A DNA stretch of 64,000 bases from Spirochaetales bacterium Spiro_02. Lineage in GTDB: Bacteria > Spirochaetota > Spirochaetia > Sphaerochaetales > Sphaerochaetaceae. Under the pieces are notes generated by a model. The model was not told where the DNA came from. It did not search any database and was given only the letters and a program-made list of their open reading frames with translations. The number at the start of each line of letters is the position of its first letter. Positions within the stretch are counted from its first letter, which is position 1. Position numbers and translations under genes: made by a program. The stretch covers positions 1-64,000 of the forward strand of contig LVBD01000011.1 in assembly GCA_001604275.1 (NCBI GenBank), in the 5' to 3' direction. Shown piece by piece: positions 165 through 5,075 of this stretch.

Positions 165-1502
165 CTATGGACGTTTCGGCTGGCGTCGGTACCATTTTCG
201 CTTCGGTTTCGGCGCTTCTTCCCGAATGCCGAAAAAACGCATTGGATTGGTTTGTGCGAAGGCCAGAACCTGTGCGTCTGAGAATGGCGAACGCTCAAAC
301 AGCCTGTAGTAGCTGGTATAGGATTCCACTTTCAGCAAGTTTACCGAGAAATCGGATCCGAACATCGTCCGCTCCAATATCCTGTCCGCCGTCTCTGGTT
401 CCGAGCTTTCGATGAAATGAAGCAGATGCTCATAGAATTCCGGACTTGTGCCTGAGAACGAAACGTCGGCGTACACACCCGGGTATTCCTTCATCAGGTC
501 TACGATTTCATAAAACCATGCGGATTCCGGCATTTTGTTGGCGACTGCGGTGATCATTGACAGGGGGCGCTTGCCGCTTGCGATGGAGTATTGTTTTCCG
601 TAGTGCGCGAAATCGACTTTCAGATCAGGGAAGTGTTCGAATACAGGTCTCCAGGACGACGGTGCGGTATACTGCCATGCTGTTTTCGCCGGTACGCCAC
701 GGAATCCTTGGTCGTCGCAATGGGTGACGATCGGTAACTCGTGGTCTACGCAGTATCGGTAGATGAGCTTGACTTTCTCCAACTCCTGCGGGGACTCTTC
801 CGGCCAGGGATTCGTTCCGAGCGGCGGATAGAATTTGACTCCATAGAATCGTTTGCGCTGTTCGACGGATGGAGCTATCGCATCCTGTGGCGGAATCCGA
901 CGATGGTCAGGATTGATCATTCCCAGCAATTTTTCGATGAATGCGACGTCATGGACCGCGGGATTGATTCCCAGCATCGGATAGAATTCGAACAACCCTT
1001 CCGGACGATTGGCATAGTACCAGTCGATTCCATCGAGCGTGTCCTGTGCATAACCGAGGATTTTCTGGGGTTGGTCGCACCGATAATAGATTTTGTCCCA
1101 TTCCTTCTGGTCCTGCGAAAAGTCCATGACCAGAGGACACATCGCCATTTTGTCGTAGGTACGGTTCCTGAAGTGGAACTTGCCGTCACGGATATAGCTT
1201 TGTTGCGGATATTCGGATCCCGCATGCGCTTTGCCGGCAGGTTGGGTGTATAGGCCACGCAAGTCGTCATCCATCATTGCGAAGATTTCGCCGATGGGTC
1301 GTTCGAATGCGGATAGCGCGTTCATCAGCGTATAGAGCATCTGCATGCCTTTTCTATTGGACGGGGTGAATATGTAGGAAGGGGAGAGCGCTCCGCCGGT
1401 AATGAATTCGGGAAGTCCTCCCTCGATCGATTCCATAAAGCTGATGAAACTGGGATGAGCGAGCGTCATTGCGTGGAAATGGGTATCGAAGAAATAATCC
1501 AT
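165..1502 (-). CDS. Amidohydrolase (TIM-barrel metal hydrolase), 445 aa
   Basis: The protein begins MDYFFDTHFHAM, with the HxH metal-binding signature of the amidohydrolase superfamily at residues 8-10. Later it has a histidine-rich IVTHCDDQGF strand, DFAHYGKQ and a late FGSDFSVN segment, as expected for successive barrel strands. It resembles the amidohydrolase-2 group, whose substrates vary widely, so no substrate is proposed. The start at 1502 is chosen because GGAGG lies six bases upstream; the frame stays open far beyond it, but that extension has no homology feel and runs over another gene. It is transcribed separately from the hip-like pair behind it. Confidence 0.75.
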   Translation of the reverse strand: MDYFFDTHFHAMTLAHPSFISFMESIEGGLPEFITGGALSPSYIFTPSNRKGMQMLYTLMNALSAFERPIGEIFAMMDDDLRGLYTQPAGKAHAGSEYPQQSYIRDGKFHFRNRTYDKMAMCPLVMDFSQDQKEWDKIYYRCDQPQKILGYAQDTLDGIDWYYANRPEGLFEFYPMLGINPAVHDVAFIEKLLGMINPDHRRIPPQDAIAPSVEQRKRFYGVKFYPPLGTNPWPEESPQELEKVKLIYRYCVDHELPIVTHCDDQGFRGVPAKTAWQYTAPSSWRPVFEHFPDLKVDFAHYGKQYSIASGKRPLSMITAVANKMPESAWFYEIVDLMKEYPGVYADVSFSGTSPEFYEHLLHFIESSEPETADRILERTMFGSDFSVNLLKVESYTSYYRLFERSPFSDAQVLAFAQTNPMRFFGIREEAPKPKRKWYRRQPKRP

Positions 1503-1543
1503 GGGCCCCTCCGCTAAGCTCGATGATACCAGAATATATACTC

Positions 1544-2548
1544 CTAGACCAGAGTTTTTAGGACCGCATACCGTTTTTCCGCGCTGTCGAGCAACAGCAT
1601 CCTGTGCCGACCGAGCTTCTTCATTGGAAAACGTTGCAGGAGCCGCATGACCGAGGGCTCTCGAATCAGGACAAACCGCAAGAGTCTTTCCGCATCCGTC
1701 CGGCACAGACCTAGACGCGCTGCCAGCGGATAATAGCGATGGATACGTTCCTCCGAGGTTCTCGCATTTTTCTGGAACAGGTCGAGCCCGTCGATGTTCA
1801 GCCGCAATCCAAGCGCGGGACCGAGACGGCGTGTGGAATCTTCCCGTTGTATCAGGATCAGTTTCCTGGATGAGCAGGCCGGTACGGAAAATACATATGA
1901 GAACAGCATCCTCAGGATGTATGCATGTGCGTCCTGCTTCGGATAATCCGAAGCCTGTAGCAATGTCAACCCTTGCTGAAGATCGAGACTTGAAAGAAGC
2001 GTCCGTTGCTGCTCCGATCGGAAGCCTTTTGGCTGACGACCGATCTGGGCCAGTGATTCTACATGGTGCTGGACAATGCCATGCGGGCCGACTTCCCGGT
2101 CGATTCTCGGAACGATCAATCCGATTCTTCCGGATTCGATCGGTACGAACTGCATCTGTACGGCAAAGATACCGAACGTCCGTGCAAGTGACATCGTCAG
2201 CCACTCGTTCTCAGCCTGCCGATTCGCTTCAGATACATTTCGTATGGCAGGAACCTTGAGGAAGAATCTGCCGGTCGTTTGCAGTGAAGGAATCAGTTTC
2301 ATCGATCTCGGATCAAGTCGTAGCGATATGAGGTATGATGATTCGCTGAAGGGATGCATGCATTCCATCCAGGCGCCTTCGAGTTTCAGCGTCGGCGCTC
2401 TTGTAAATCCGAACAGCTGTTCGCAACAGAGCGAATGATAGCCGTGGCGTACATCCATGTTGCGTATCAGAAGTCTGCCGCAGAACGGACAGAAACTTCG
2501 CGCACAGGAACACGCTCCTTCCGTATTCTCCGAACGGAGCGGCGTCAT
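1544..2548 (-). CDS. HipA C-terminal (HipT-like) protein, probable pseudokinase, 334 aa
   Basis: The architecture is that of the short HipA/HipT kinases: a zinc-finger-like start (CxxC at residues 20-23, then YHSLCC at 37-42), an ATP-lobe strand FFLKVP with Lys98, an ENE motif at 113-115 and a helical C-terminal lobe. In active members the catalytic loop reads like N-D-x-H-x-K-N and the metal loop like PAYD. Here the aligned stretches read SVPACSSRK (221-229) and LGPALG (242-247), so both catalytic aspartates are replaced, by Ala224 and Gly247. The start ATG overlaps the stop of the HipA-N-like gene by four bases, implying coupled translation. HipA kinases phosphorylate glutamyl- or tryptophanyl-tRNA synthetase; this copy probably cannot. 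Confidence 0.7.
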   Translation of the reverse strand: MTPLRSENTEGACSCARSFCPFCGRLLIRNMDVRHGYHSLCCEQLFGFTRAPTLKLEGAWMECMHPFSESSYLISLRLDPRSMKLIPSLQTTGRFFLKVPAIRNVSEANRQAENEWLTMSLARTFGIFAVQMQFVPIESGRIGLIVPRIDREVGPHGIVQHHVESLAQIGRQPKGFRSEQQRTLLSSLDLQQGLTLLQASDYPKQDAHAYILRMLFSYVFSVPACSSRKLILIQREDSTRRLGPALGLRLNIDGLDLFQKNARTSEERIHRYYPLAARLGLCRTDAERLLRFVLIREPSVMRLLQRFPMKKLGRHRMLLLDSAEKRYAVLKTLV

Positions 2549-2916
2549 CTTGCGAAATGCAGGCCGGTCGTTCCGTCGCCTCCGAGACCGCTATCCGTAG
2601 CGGGGGGGCCGAATGAGACGGCGCCGACCGTCCGTTTTCCGAGACGAGCAAGCACTTCGATGGGGTTCCTTGGGTTGCAGTGCTCCAGTTTTGCGAAAGC
2701 GAGCAAAGCCTTTCCTTTCGGAAGCAACTGGTCGAAGCAGGGAAACAGTTCCTGACTAACGAATTGCTGGCTTCGCAACGGGAGCGAATGGCTGATTGCT
2801 TCAGCGAAAGGCGAACCGAGGAAATTCGCTGCATAAATGAATCGATATTCATGGCGCGATCTCTGCAAGATTCCAGCGCACATGCCTTTCCAGTATACTA
2901 TGCATGAGTCTTCCAT
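2545..2916 (-). CDS. HipA N-terminal (HipS-like) domain protein, about 123 aa
   Basis: The sequence VYWKGMCAG...YRFIYAANFLGSPFAEAISHSLPLRSQ...LFPCFDQLLPKG...LGKRTVGAVSF matches the N-subdomain of HipA proteins, encoded here as a separate small gene. In tripartite HipBST systems this piece (HipS) is the antitoxin of HipT; that role is known for the family and only inferred here. The ATG at 2916 is used; an in-frame TTG at 2928 is possible, and neither has a clear ribosome site. A good promoter lies at 2956-2983. No HipB-type DNA-binding gene fits in the 180 bases upstream. Confidence 0.7.
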   Translation of the reverse strand: MEDSCIVYWKGMCAGILQRSRHEYRFIYAANFLGSPFAEAISHSLPLRSQQFVSQELFPCFDQLLPKGKALLAFAKLEHCNPRNPIEVLARLGKRTVGAVSFGPPATDSGLGGDGTTGLHFAR

Positions 2917-2955
2917 ACGTAAATCCAATCATGAGACGAATGATGTTTTTTCAAC

Positions 2956-2983
2956 ATTATAAACCGTTTTCTGTCAGGTTCAA
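2956..2983 (-). promoter_or_regulatory. Promoter of the hip-like pair
   Basis: On the minus strand TTGAAC (2978-2983) and TATAAT (2956-2961) are separated by 16 bases. It sits downstream of the glnS terminator, so the hip-like pair is an independent transcription unit. Confidence 0.6.
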
Positions 2984-3044
2984 GGAATTTGTTTCGGAAG
3001 GTTCGCAAGAGACTTGCAGGACATGCGACCCTGAGTGAGAATCC

Positions 3045-3080
3045 GTAAAACACCGCGACTGCCGACAGGCAAGTCGCGGC
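3045..3080 (-). terminator. Rho-independent terminator of glnS
   Basis: On the minus strand CCGCGACT (stem bases 3072-3079) pairs with AGTCGCGG (3053-3060) and is followed by TGTTTTAC. It lies just after the glnS stop at 3096. Confidence 0.7.
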
Positions 3081-3095
3081 GGTCCGGATGCTCCG

Positions 3096-4820
3096 TCACA
3101 GCCCCATTTTCTGCTTCATCTTCGCCCATGAGTCCTTGAGCGTTACCGTTCTGTTGAAAACCGGATGTTCAGGACTATGATCCTTGCTGTCCGGGCAGAA
3201 ATAGCCGTTGCGGATGAACTGCAGATAATCGCCGGGGCTCGTCCTGCGAACTTCAGGCTCAGCCTTGCAATGCTCCAGAACGATCAGTGATTCAGGATTC
3301 AAGTCGTCCAGATAGTTGCCGGTCTCTCCCCCCGGGTATTCCGATAGGAAGAGCTTGTCGTACAGCCGTACTTCGCAATCCACCGCATGGCTGGCGCTGA
3401 CCCAATGGCTCGTTCCCTTGACTTTGCGTCCGTCCGGTGTGGTTCCGCCTTTGGATAGTGGGTCGTACGTGCAGTGGACTTCGACGATGTTGCCATCCTC
3501 ATCCTTGACCACGCCGCTGGCTGTGATATAGTAGGCATGCTTGAGGCGTATCTCGTTGCCGGGATACAACCTGTGGTATCCTTTCGGAGGAGCTTCCATG
3601 AAATCTTCCCGTTCTATGTACAGTTCCCGGGAGAAGGGTATCTCTCGAGTTCCATCCTCGGGATTCTCCGGATTGTTTTCCGAGGTGATATATTCGACCT
3701 TCCCTTCCGGGTAGTTGTCGATGACCACCTTCAATGGGTCGAGAACTGCCATGAGCCGTTTCGCTCGTTTGTTGAGATCCTCTCGGACGCAGAACTCCAT
3801 CAGGCTATAGTCGACGACACCTTCGACCTTCGCTACTCCGACACGTGCGACGAAGTCCCGCATGGATTCCGGCGAATAGCCTCTTCTACGGATGCCGCTG
3901 ATCGTCGGCATTCGGGGATCATCCCATCCCGAGACGATCCCTTGCTTGACAAGATTCAACAGCTTCCGTTTGCTCATGACGCAGTAGTTGATATTCAGAC
4001 GAGCGAATTCGTATTGATGGGGGGTATGGTCGATTCCGTCGATGCTCGTAGCCCAGTCGTACGCCGGTCGGTGATCTTCGAACTCCAGAGTGCAGATCGA
4101 ATGGGTGATACCTTCGATGGCGTCGCTGATCGGATGGGTGAAGTCGTACATCGGATAGATGCACCATTTGTCACCGGTTCGCGGATGCGTCGCGAACTTG
4201 ATCCGGTACAAGGCGGGATCCCGCAAGTTGATGTTCGGGCTGGCCATGTCGATCTTCGCTCTGAGCACGAAGCTCCCTTCAGGGTGTCTGCCCTGTCGCA
4301 TTTCCTCGAACAGACGGAGATTGTCCTCGATCGAACGATCCCGGTCCGGACTGTTCTTTCCCGGTGTGGTCAGCGTGCCGCGGTATTCCTTCATTTGCTC
4401 GGGACTGAGGCTGTCCACATAGGCTTTGCCTTCCTTGATGAGCCGCACGGCGATTTCATACAGTTGCTGATAGTAGTCCGAGGCGTAGAATTCATAAGAC
4501 CCCCAGTCGAAACCGAGCCACCTGATGTCCCGTTTGATCGACTCGATATATTCCATATCTTCTTTTTCCGGGTTCGTGTCATCGAGTCTCAGATGGCAGC
4601 GCCCGCCGTATTTCTCCGCAAGGCCGAAATTGATGCAGATCGACTTGATGTGTCCGATATGCAGGTATCCGTTCGGCTCCGGCGGGAACCGTGTCACGAT
4701 CGTGTTGTTCGGCACGCGCTCGTTCGCTAGGTCATCCTCGATGATCCGTTCGAGGAAATTCAGCGGCGCTTTGTCCTTTCCTGCTTCTTCCTTGTCGATG
4801 TTGTTGGGCAGCTCTTCCAT
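3096..4820 (-). CDS. glnS: Glutaminyl-tRNA synthetase, 574 aa
   Basis: This cytosolic enzyme charges tRNA-Gln with glutamine. The class I signatures are visible: FPPEPNGYLHIGHIKS carries the HIGH motif and VMSKRKLL the KMSKS-like motif. RLDDTNPEKEDMEYIESI and the C-terminal beta-barrel region with HYSPEHPVFNRTVTLKD-like sequence fit GlnRS rather than GluRS. The length is close to the roughly 550 aa of bacterial GlnRS. I chose the ATG at 4820 (MEELPNN) because AAAGGAAGGAA lies directly upstream; an ATG at 4844 is less well placed. Having GlnRS implies direct glutaminylation, although a GatCAB route elsewhere is not excluded. Convergent with nothing; it ends in its own terminator. Confidence 0.95.
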   Translation of the reverse strand: MEELPNNIDKEEAGKDKAPLNFLERIIEDDLANERVPNNTIVTRFPPEPNGYLHIGHIKSICINFGLAEKYGGRCHLRLDDTNPEKEDMEYIESIKRDIRWLGFDWGSYEFYASDYYQQLYEIAVRLIKEGKAYVDSLSPEQMKEYRGTLTTPGKNSPDRDRSIEDNLRLFEEMRQGRHPEGSFVLRAKIDMASPNINLRDPALYRIKFATHPRTGDKWCIYPMYDFTHPISDAIEGITHSICTLEFEDHRPAYDWATSIDGIDHTPHQYEFARLNINYCVMSKRKLLNLVKQGIVSGWDDPRMPTISGIRRRGYSPESMRDFVARVGVAKVEGVVDYSLMEFCVREDLNKRAKRLMAVLDPLKVVIDNYPEGKVEYITSENNPENPEDGTREIPFSRELYIEREDFMEAPPKGYHRLYPGNEIRLKHAYYITASGVVKDEDGNIVEVHCTYDPLSKGGTTPDGRKVKGTSHWVSASHAVDCEVRLYDKLFLSEYPGGETGNYLDDLNPESLIVLEHCKAEPEVRRTSPGDYLQFIRNGYFCPDSKDHSPEHPVFNRTVTLKDSWAKMKQKMGL

Positions 4821-5075
4821 GGGTTCCTTCCTTTGTCCTTCCATAGGGACGTGAGTCAAGATACCGCATAGTACCACAAGGGGGTATTCTCGAGAAGTAC
4901 TCTGGACGGCCGGGATTCTCCTTTCTTCGTTTTTTGATGTCTATCTTGAAATATGGTCCTGCGGATGGAAAATCGTGTCGGAACCAGCCCTCGGGAGGAT
5001 GAAACAAAACGTGTTTCGTGCAATACTGTCCGAAGATTTTTCATAGACTTCCAAGCTAAGGATGGATTGCTTCGG

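Follow-up and report, generated by a model that had tools for sequence, protein, structure and literature searches.

The closest described relatives of the locus analysed here are the HipBST systems of E. coli O127:H6, of Legionella (Lpg2368-2370) and of Spirochaetota and Bacteroidota loci, in which HipS and HipT are likewise encoded by split genes. Trp65 of HipS enters the active site of HipT and is required to neutralise E. coli HipT, which W65A HipS fails to do; Glu63 of HipS points into the same active site, and Trp65 is missing from some HipS proteins (PMC10627512). On the HipT side, studied in Legionella, binding to HipS no longer occurs with D133A, R134A and E144A and is weaker with R154A, K157A and K201A (PMC9325769).

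In this work we describe a hipS-like and a hipT-like gene found in a 64,000-nucleotide stretch of a Spirochaetales genome (the window, meaning the whole stretch of DNA that was analysed). With moderate confidence, we favour the reading that they are a retained, non-catalytic HipS–pseudo-HipT pair over the reading that they are a decaying relic.

The gene pair and its genomic site

The genes concerned lie on the minus strand in the order glnS, hipS-like, hipT-like and amidohydrolase gene, with the following positions in the window.

3096..4844, minus strand: glnS
1503..3095, no strand: insertion of about 1.5 kb between glnS and the amidohydrolase gene, 1593 nt here versus 53-82 nt in 14 family genomes
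2545..2916, minus strand: hipS-like gene (HipA N-subdomain-1 / Couple_hipA), 123 aa from the ATG at 2916
1544..2548, minus strand: hipT-like pseudokinase gene, 334 aa, with a HipA_C match and HipT as best Foldseek match
165..1502, minus strand: amidohydrolase gene

The hipS-like gene, for which a TTG at 2928 is an alternative start, overlaps the hipT-like gene by 4 nt (ATGA), and its product carries a C-terminal extension of about 20 aa. Couple_hipA was matched in this product with 70.4 bits (Pfam cut-off 22.5) and HipA_C in the hipT-like product with 45.1 bits (cut-off 30.5), the latter match covering profile positions 19-132 alone and ending just short of the catalytic loop. From residue 20 to the C-terminus, the window HipT can be aligned with its relatives in frame. 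It corresponds to the HipA kinase fold without N-subdomain-1, as in HipBST (partly on the strength of the predicted structure), and the HipS homologue is encoded directly upstream of it, as expected of HipBST. Both reading frames are open, intact and in frame, and they are full-length when compared with HipS and HipT of tripartite hipBST.

When the two proteins were modelled with AlphaFold2, HipS-like and HipT-like folds were returned. The HipS model has a pLDDT of 85 and its best PDB matches in Foldseek are HipS and HipA N-domains. The HipT model has a pLDDT of 68.5 and a pTM of 0.69, with low confidence in the N-terminal segment and in the Gly-loop segment 58–92 (pLDDT <50); its top Foldseek matches are the HipT structures 7wcf, 7ab5 and 7ab3 (TM ~0.6). 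Plasmid-record sequences were excluded from the structure-prediction alignments, and since intact relatives formed the alignment for the HipT model, retention of the HipT fold is partly assumed. The identification of the pair as HipS and HipT in the initial annotation is borne out by the Pfam matches, the alignments and the Foldseek matches, and its statement that the frames are intact also holds, as both ORFs are without a stop and no frameshift is needed. A separate observation concerns the amidohydrolase frame, whose likely start is preceded by a further stretch of about 700 nt that is also open and crosses hipT in another frame; the resulting spurious ORF of 679 aa at 165-2204 (minus strand) may mislead automatic annotation.

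The spacing between glnS and the amidohydrolase gene in the other family genomes indicates that this lineage most likely gained the pair by insertion. Beyond the pair, the genome (2.61 Mb, 74 contigs) contains no further HipA_C or Couple_hipA domain. Likewise, no ortholog of the pair was found in the family sample (139 genomes of the only family of its order in the collection) or in the phylum and class samples, the genus being represented by this genome alone; these samples yielded distant relatives only, about 20–35% identical. Viral contigs, plasmids, phages and one HipT scan of genome contigs contained no ortholog either, and a second contig scan used the pattern FFDGLIPE, which could detect canonical HipS only. 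Placing the window HipT in a tree was abandoned as meaningless, because its branch is saturated and the divergence extreme. The same phylum also holds a fused HipS-HipT protein of 455 aa (L138:1459-2823; motifs FDGLIPEGW and GNADMHLKNFS), a HipA-like fusion inside the HipT group.

Upstream of hipS, the region where a regulator and its operator would be looked for contains the following.

2917..3095, minus strand: intergenic region without hipB and without a TATACC(N6)GGTATA operator, holding a glnS terminator-like hairpin
within 2917..3095, minus strand: the glnS terminator-like hairpin, CCGCGACT..AGTCGCGG-TGTTTT, read by eye
2956..2983, minus strand: sigma-70-like promoter TTGAAC-16-TATAAT upstream of hipS, well placed

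In the family copies inspected, an HTH gene for HipB stands just upstream of the canonical split hipS–hipT. HipB was present in 79 of the 80 HipS loci of the contig scan seeded on FFDGLIPE, and beside most split hipST pairs of relatives it scores 88–121 bits with the HipB profile. No HipB remnant was found upstream of hipS and no HipB-like reading frame in the window. A cognate HipB is absent from the genome too, whose best two matches to the profile score 21 bits each. The absence of an adjacent HTH partner, as first reported, was confirmed. The initial annotation had missed that the operator is gone as well: palindrome half-sites precede hipB in all 18 relatives, and the exact palindrome TATAC(N8)GTATA, usually TATACCnnnnnnGGTATA, in 11 of them, but neither the palindrome nor a half-site occurs at 2917..3110 of the window. 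Across phyla, TATACC(N6)GGTATA is conserved upstream of hipB (in L004, L005, L010, L013, L021, L024, L027, L028, L128, L129 and L158) and often repeated, with copies about 40 or 80 nt apart, and it looks like a candidate shared HipB operator. As for the TATAAT promoter claimed earlier, the element TTGAAC-16-TATAAT is indeed present, reading from 2983 to 2956, but such promoter-like matches are not above chance (2 found versus 1.1 expected).

Kinase motifs and the HipS-HipT contact surface

The motifs of the window HipT that were compared with those of its relatives are listed in the order of the gene.

2426..2491, minus strand: Zn-finger-like minidomain, retained (C20-C23-H38-C41, invariant columns)
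2297..2351, minus strand: region of the Gly-rich (ATP) loop; GVQKK absent and about 8 residues missing, from alignments
2255..2257, minus strand: Lys98, the ATP-phosphate lysine, retained, from alignments
2096..2107, minus strand: RxDR motif R148-I-D150-R151, retained (D133/R134 of Legionella HipT)
1853..1888, minus strand: former catalytic loop, SVPACSSRKLIL where relatives have GNSDMHLKNFSL
1805..1825, minus strand: former metal-binding loop, LGPALGL versus (L)xPAYDLL, after which about 14 residues are missing

Both essential aspartates had been reported as lost, and the alignments agree: the catalytic Asp column (224) holds Ala and the metal Asp column (247) holds Gly. They also agree that Lys98, the ENE motif (E113-N-E115) and the Zn-finger-like start remain, the last with 7 of its 8 conserved columns. 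The damage goes beyond what was first noted, as the Gly-rich loop of the relatives (TGVQKKLSL) is gone too, together with HxxN, the GKK motif and the residues past the metal loop. Lys98, the equivalent of Lys85, is the sole ATP-binding or catalytic side chain retained. In total, 32 of the 84 family-conserved columns are kept, 6/25 in the active site versus 26/59 elsewhere, and this preferential loss at the active site is not significant (Fisher p 0.09). The fold by itself may explain why some of the positions are retained.

A kinase that is still active through alternative residues is a very remote prospect. Lys98, ENE and RxDR do remain, but the catalytic Asp, HxxN, the metal Asp and the Gly-rich loop are all gone, and among 101 distinct related HipTs (family, phylum and GTDB-wide loci) the catalytic loop is present in every one and the metal-loop pattern in 99. 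With a kinase fold that is predicted to be retained and with both the catalytic and the metal Asp absent, the window HipT qualifies, as judged from the model and the alignments, as a putative pseudokinase, and it lacks the kinase motifs that a HipBST requires (motif list in PMC8262856).

HipS has changed in a corresponding place. Its PEGW motif reads PKGK in the window (E67K, W69K), which was missed in the initial annotation, and 23 of its 45 family-conserved columns are kept. PEGW is present in all 80 HipS loci scanned, a count biased by the FFDGLIPE seed of the scan. Taken with the kinase motif losses, E67K and W69K mean that the pair has lost the active site as well as the antitoxin segment that occupies it. 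The residues of the binding surface are few in number and were mapped by alignment. The equivalents of D133, R134 and E144 are identical in the window HipT (D150, R151 and E164), that of K201 is Arg (R228), and those of R154 and K157 are gone; like the lost Glu and Trp of HipS, these two make their contacts on the side of the active site. On the HipS side, Ser38, which contacts E144, is apparently kept as S42 opposite E164, while E58, the contact partner of R154, has become Lys. Hence the contact pairs appear to be lost or kept together.

These residues bear on the immunity role suggested earlier, in which HipS, the dead HipT or both would neutralise incoming HipA or HipT by binding or by forming mixed complexes. 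The retained HipS fold and HipT docking residues and the dead kinase would suit such a module, but the Trp that is essential for neutralisation and the neighbouring Glu are lost in HipS, and the genome is without any other HipA, HipT or HipS. With the neutralising Trp lost, the idea is a weak one, and we consider it quite improbable.

Decay or retention of the pair

The main alternative is that the pair is a decaying hipBST relic, in which hipB has gone and hipS and hipT drift without function, their frames open by chance. Several findings fit this reading and count against retention: the operator, HipB and both active-site partners are lost; the losses extend all over the kinase and include R154/K157; the divergence is extreme; the pair is known from one genome, with no relative in the family, phylum and class samples having the same pair; and codon adaptation is weak (GC3 of 0.59 versus 0.71, with a codon score near the bottom among the window genes). 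Even so, in 6 of 7 segments the codon score is higher in the annotated frame than in either of the other two.

The reading frames argue the other way. In a simulation, intact relatives were mutated without selection and without indels until 38% of the conserved sites were left, as in the window HipT. Such neutral decay leaves a mean of 3–10 stops in hipT, varying with base composition and starting gene, but the window hipT has none. The probability of no stop is 0–0.045 for hipT (0–0.005 at the GC content of the window) and 0.02-0.33 for hipS. The argument is less strong, at a few percent or more, once GC-biased mutation or an earlier phase of fast evolution is allowed for. Decay becomes even less likely because every length difference is in frame; the ATGA coupling is retained as well. 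A frameshift-tolerant alignment found zero frameshifts at an 8-bit penalty, with a score of 47.8 versus 13-19 for random window segments, and at a 5-bit penalty it gained only 4 bits and restored no catalytic motif. A compensated frameshift behind the lost catalytic loop was rejected on these results.

Two broken copies of hipT occur in the family. In one, a frameshift interrupts the gene close to the Gly-rich loop (L014:558-1500), and the other is shortened by an internal deletion of about 100 aa (L026:788-1489); the catalytic loop is intact in both. By their sequences these are real hipT decay, unlike the window pair, and the frameshifted copy speaks against a relic here, as its frame is broken yet its catalytic residues are present. 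Overall, we regard the relic as possible, though rather unlikely. Of the earlier proposal of a retained pseudokinase instead of decay, the part arguing against simple decay is supported by the no-stop simulations; the immunity role is not.

Under the favoured reading of a retained, non-catalytic pair, a hipBST toxin–antitoxin locus would have been acquired horizontally, after which HipB and its operator would have disappeared, the kinase would have ceased to be catalytic, and HipS would have lost the residues with which it blocks the active site. The translationally coupled pair would have been kept, its products most likely still associating much as HipS and HipT do, in a complex that serves binding and not catalysis. 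We infer that the pair is expressed, that the two proteins form a complex and that selection has maintained them after the loss of kinase activity. The chances are about even that, more specifically, a toxin–antitoxin module has turned into a stable non-catalytic two-protein complex under its own promoter, in which the toxin became a pseudokinase, the antitoxin lost its active-site plug along with the activity of the toxin, and autoregulation by HipB no longer applies.

Comparison with known systems

A two-gene arrangement of a kinase and a HipS-like protein without HipB is also known from hipJS (PMC8262856). In that system HipJ has been described as a kinase, with the antitoxin encoded downstream of it, whereas in the window a dead kinase follows hipS. 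Bacterial pseudokinase families, for example those of Legionella (PMC9758233), likewise have a kinase-like fold without the catalytic Asp; they are candidate effectors, and that source mentions no family that derives from HipT or is paired with HipS. In the literature searched we found no described case of a HipT-derived pseudokinase or of such a tamed pair. The pair bears on how chromosomes tame or reuse toxin–antitoxin modules. With catalysis, antitoxin contacts, regulator and operator gone and the frames still open, the pair offers a testable candidate for a domesticated toxin–antitoxin module and for a HipT-derived pseudokinase.

The likeness to HipBST itself consists of the 4-nt overlap (seen in family copies), the Zn-finger-like start of HipT, the HipS and HipT folds and the RxDR docking motif, at an identity of about 20-28% between the window HipT and any intact HipT. 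Unlike HipBST, the pair is without hipB, the operator, the Gly-rich, catalytic and metal loops, and PEGW. Although it descends from hipBST, we advise against classing it as a functional HipBST toxin–antitoxin system, since HipB, the operator, the kinase motifs and the HipS plug are all missing.
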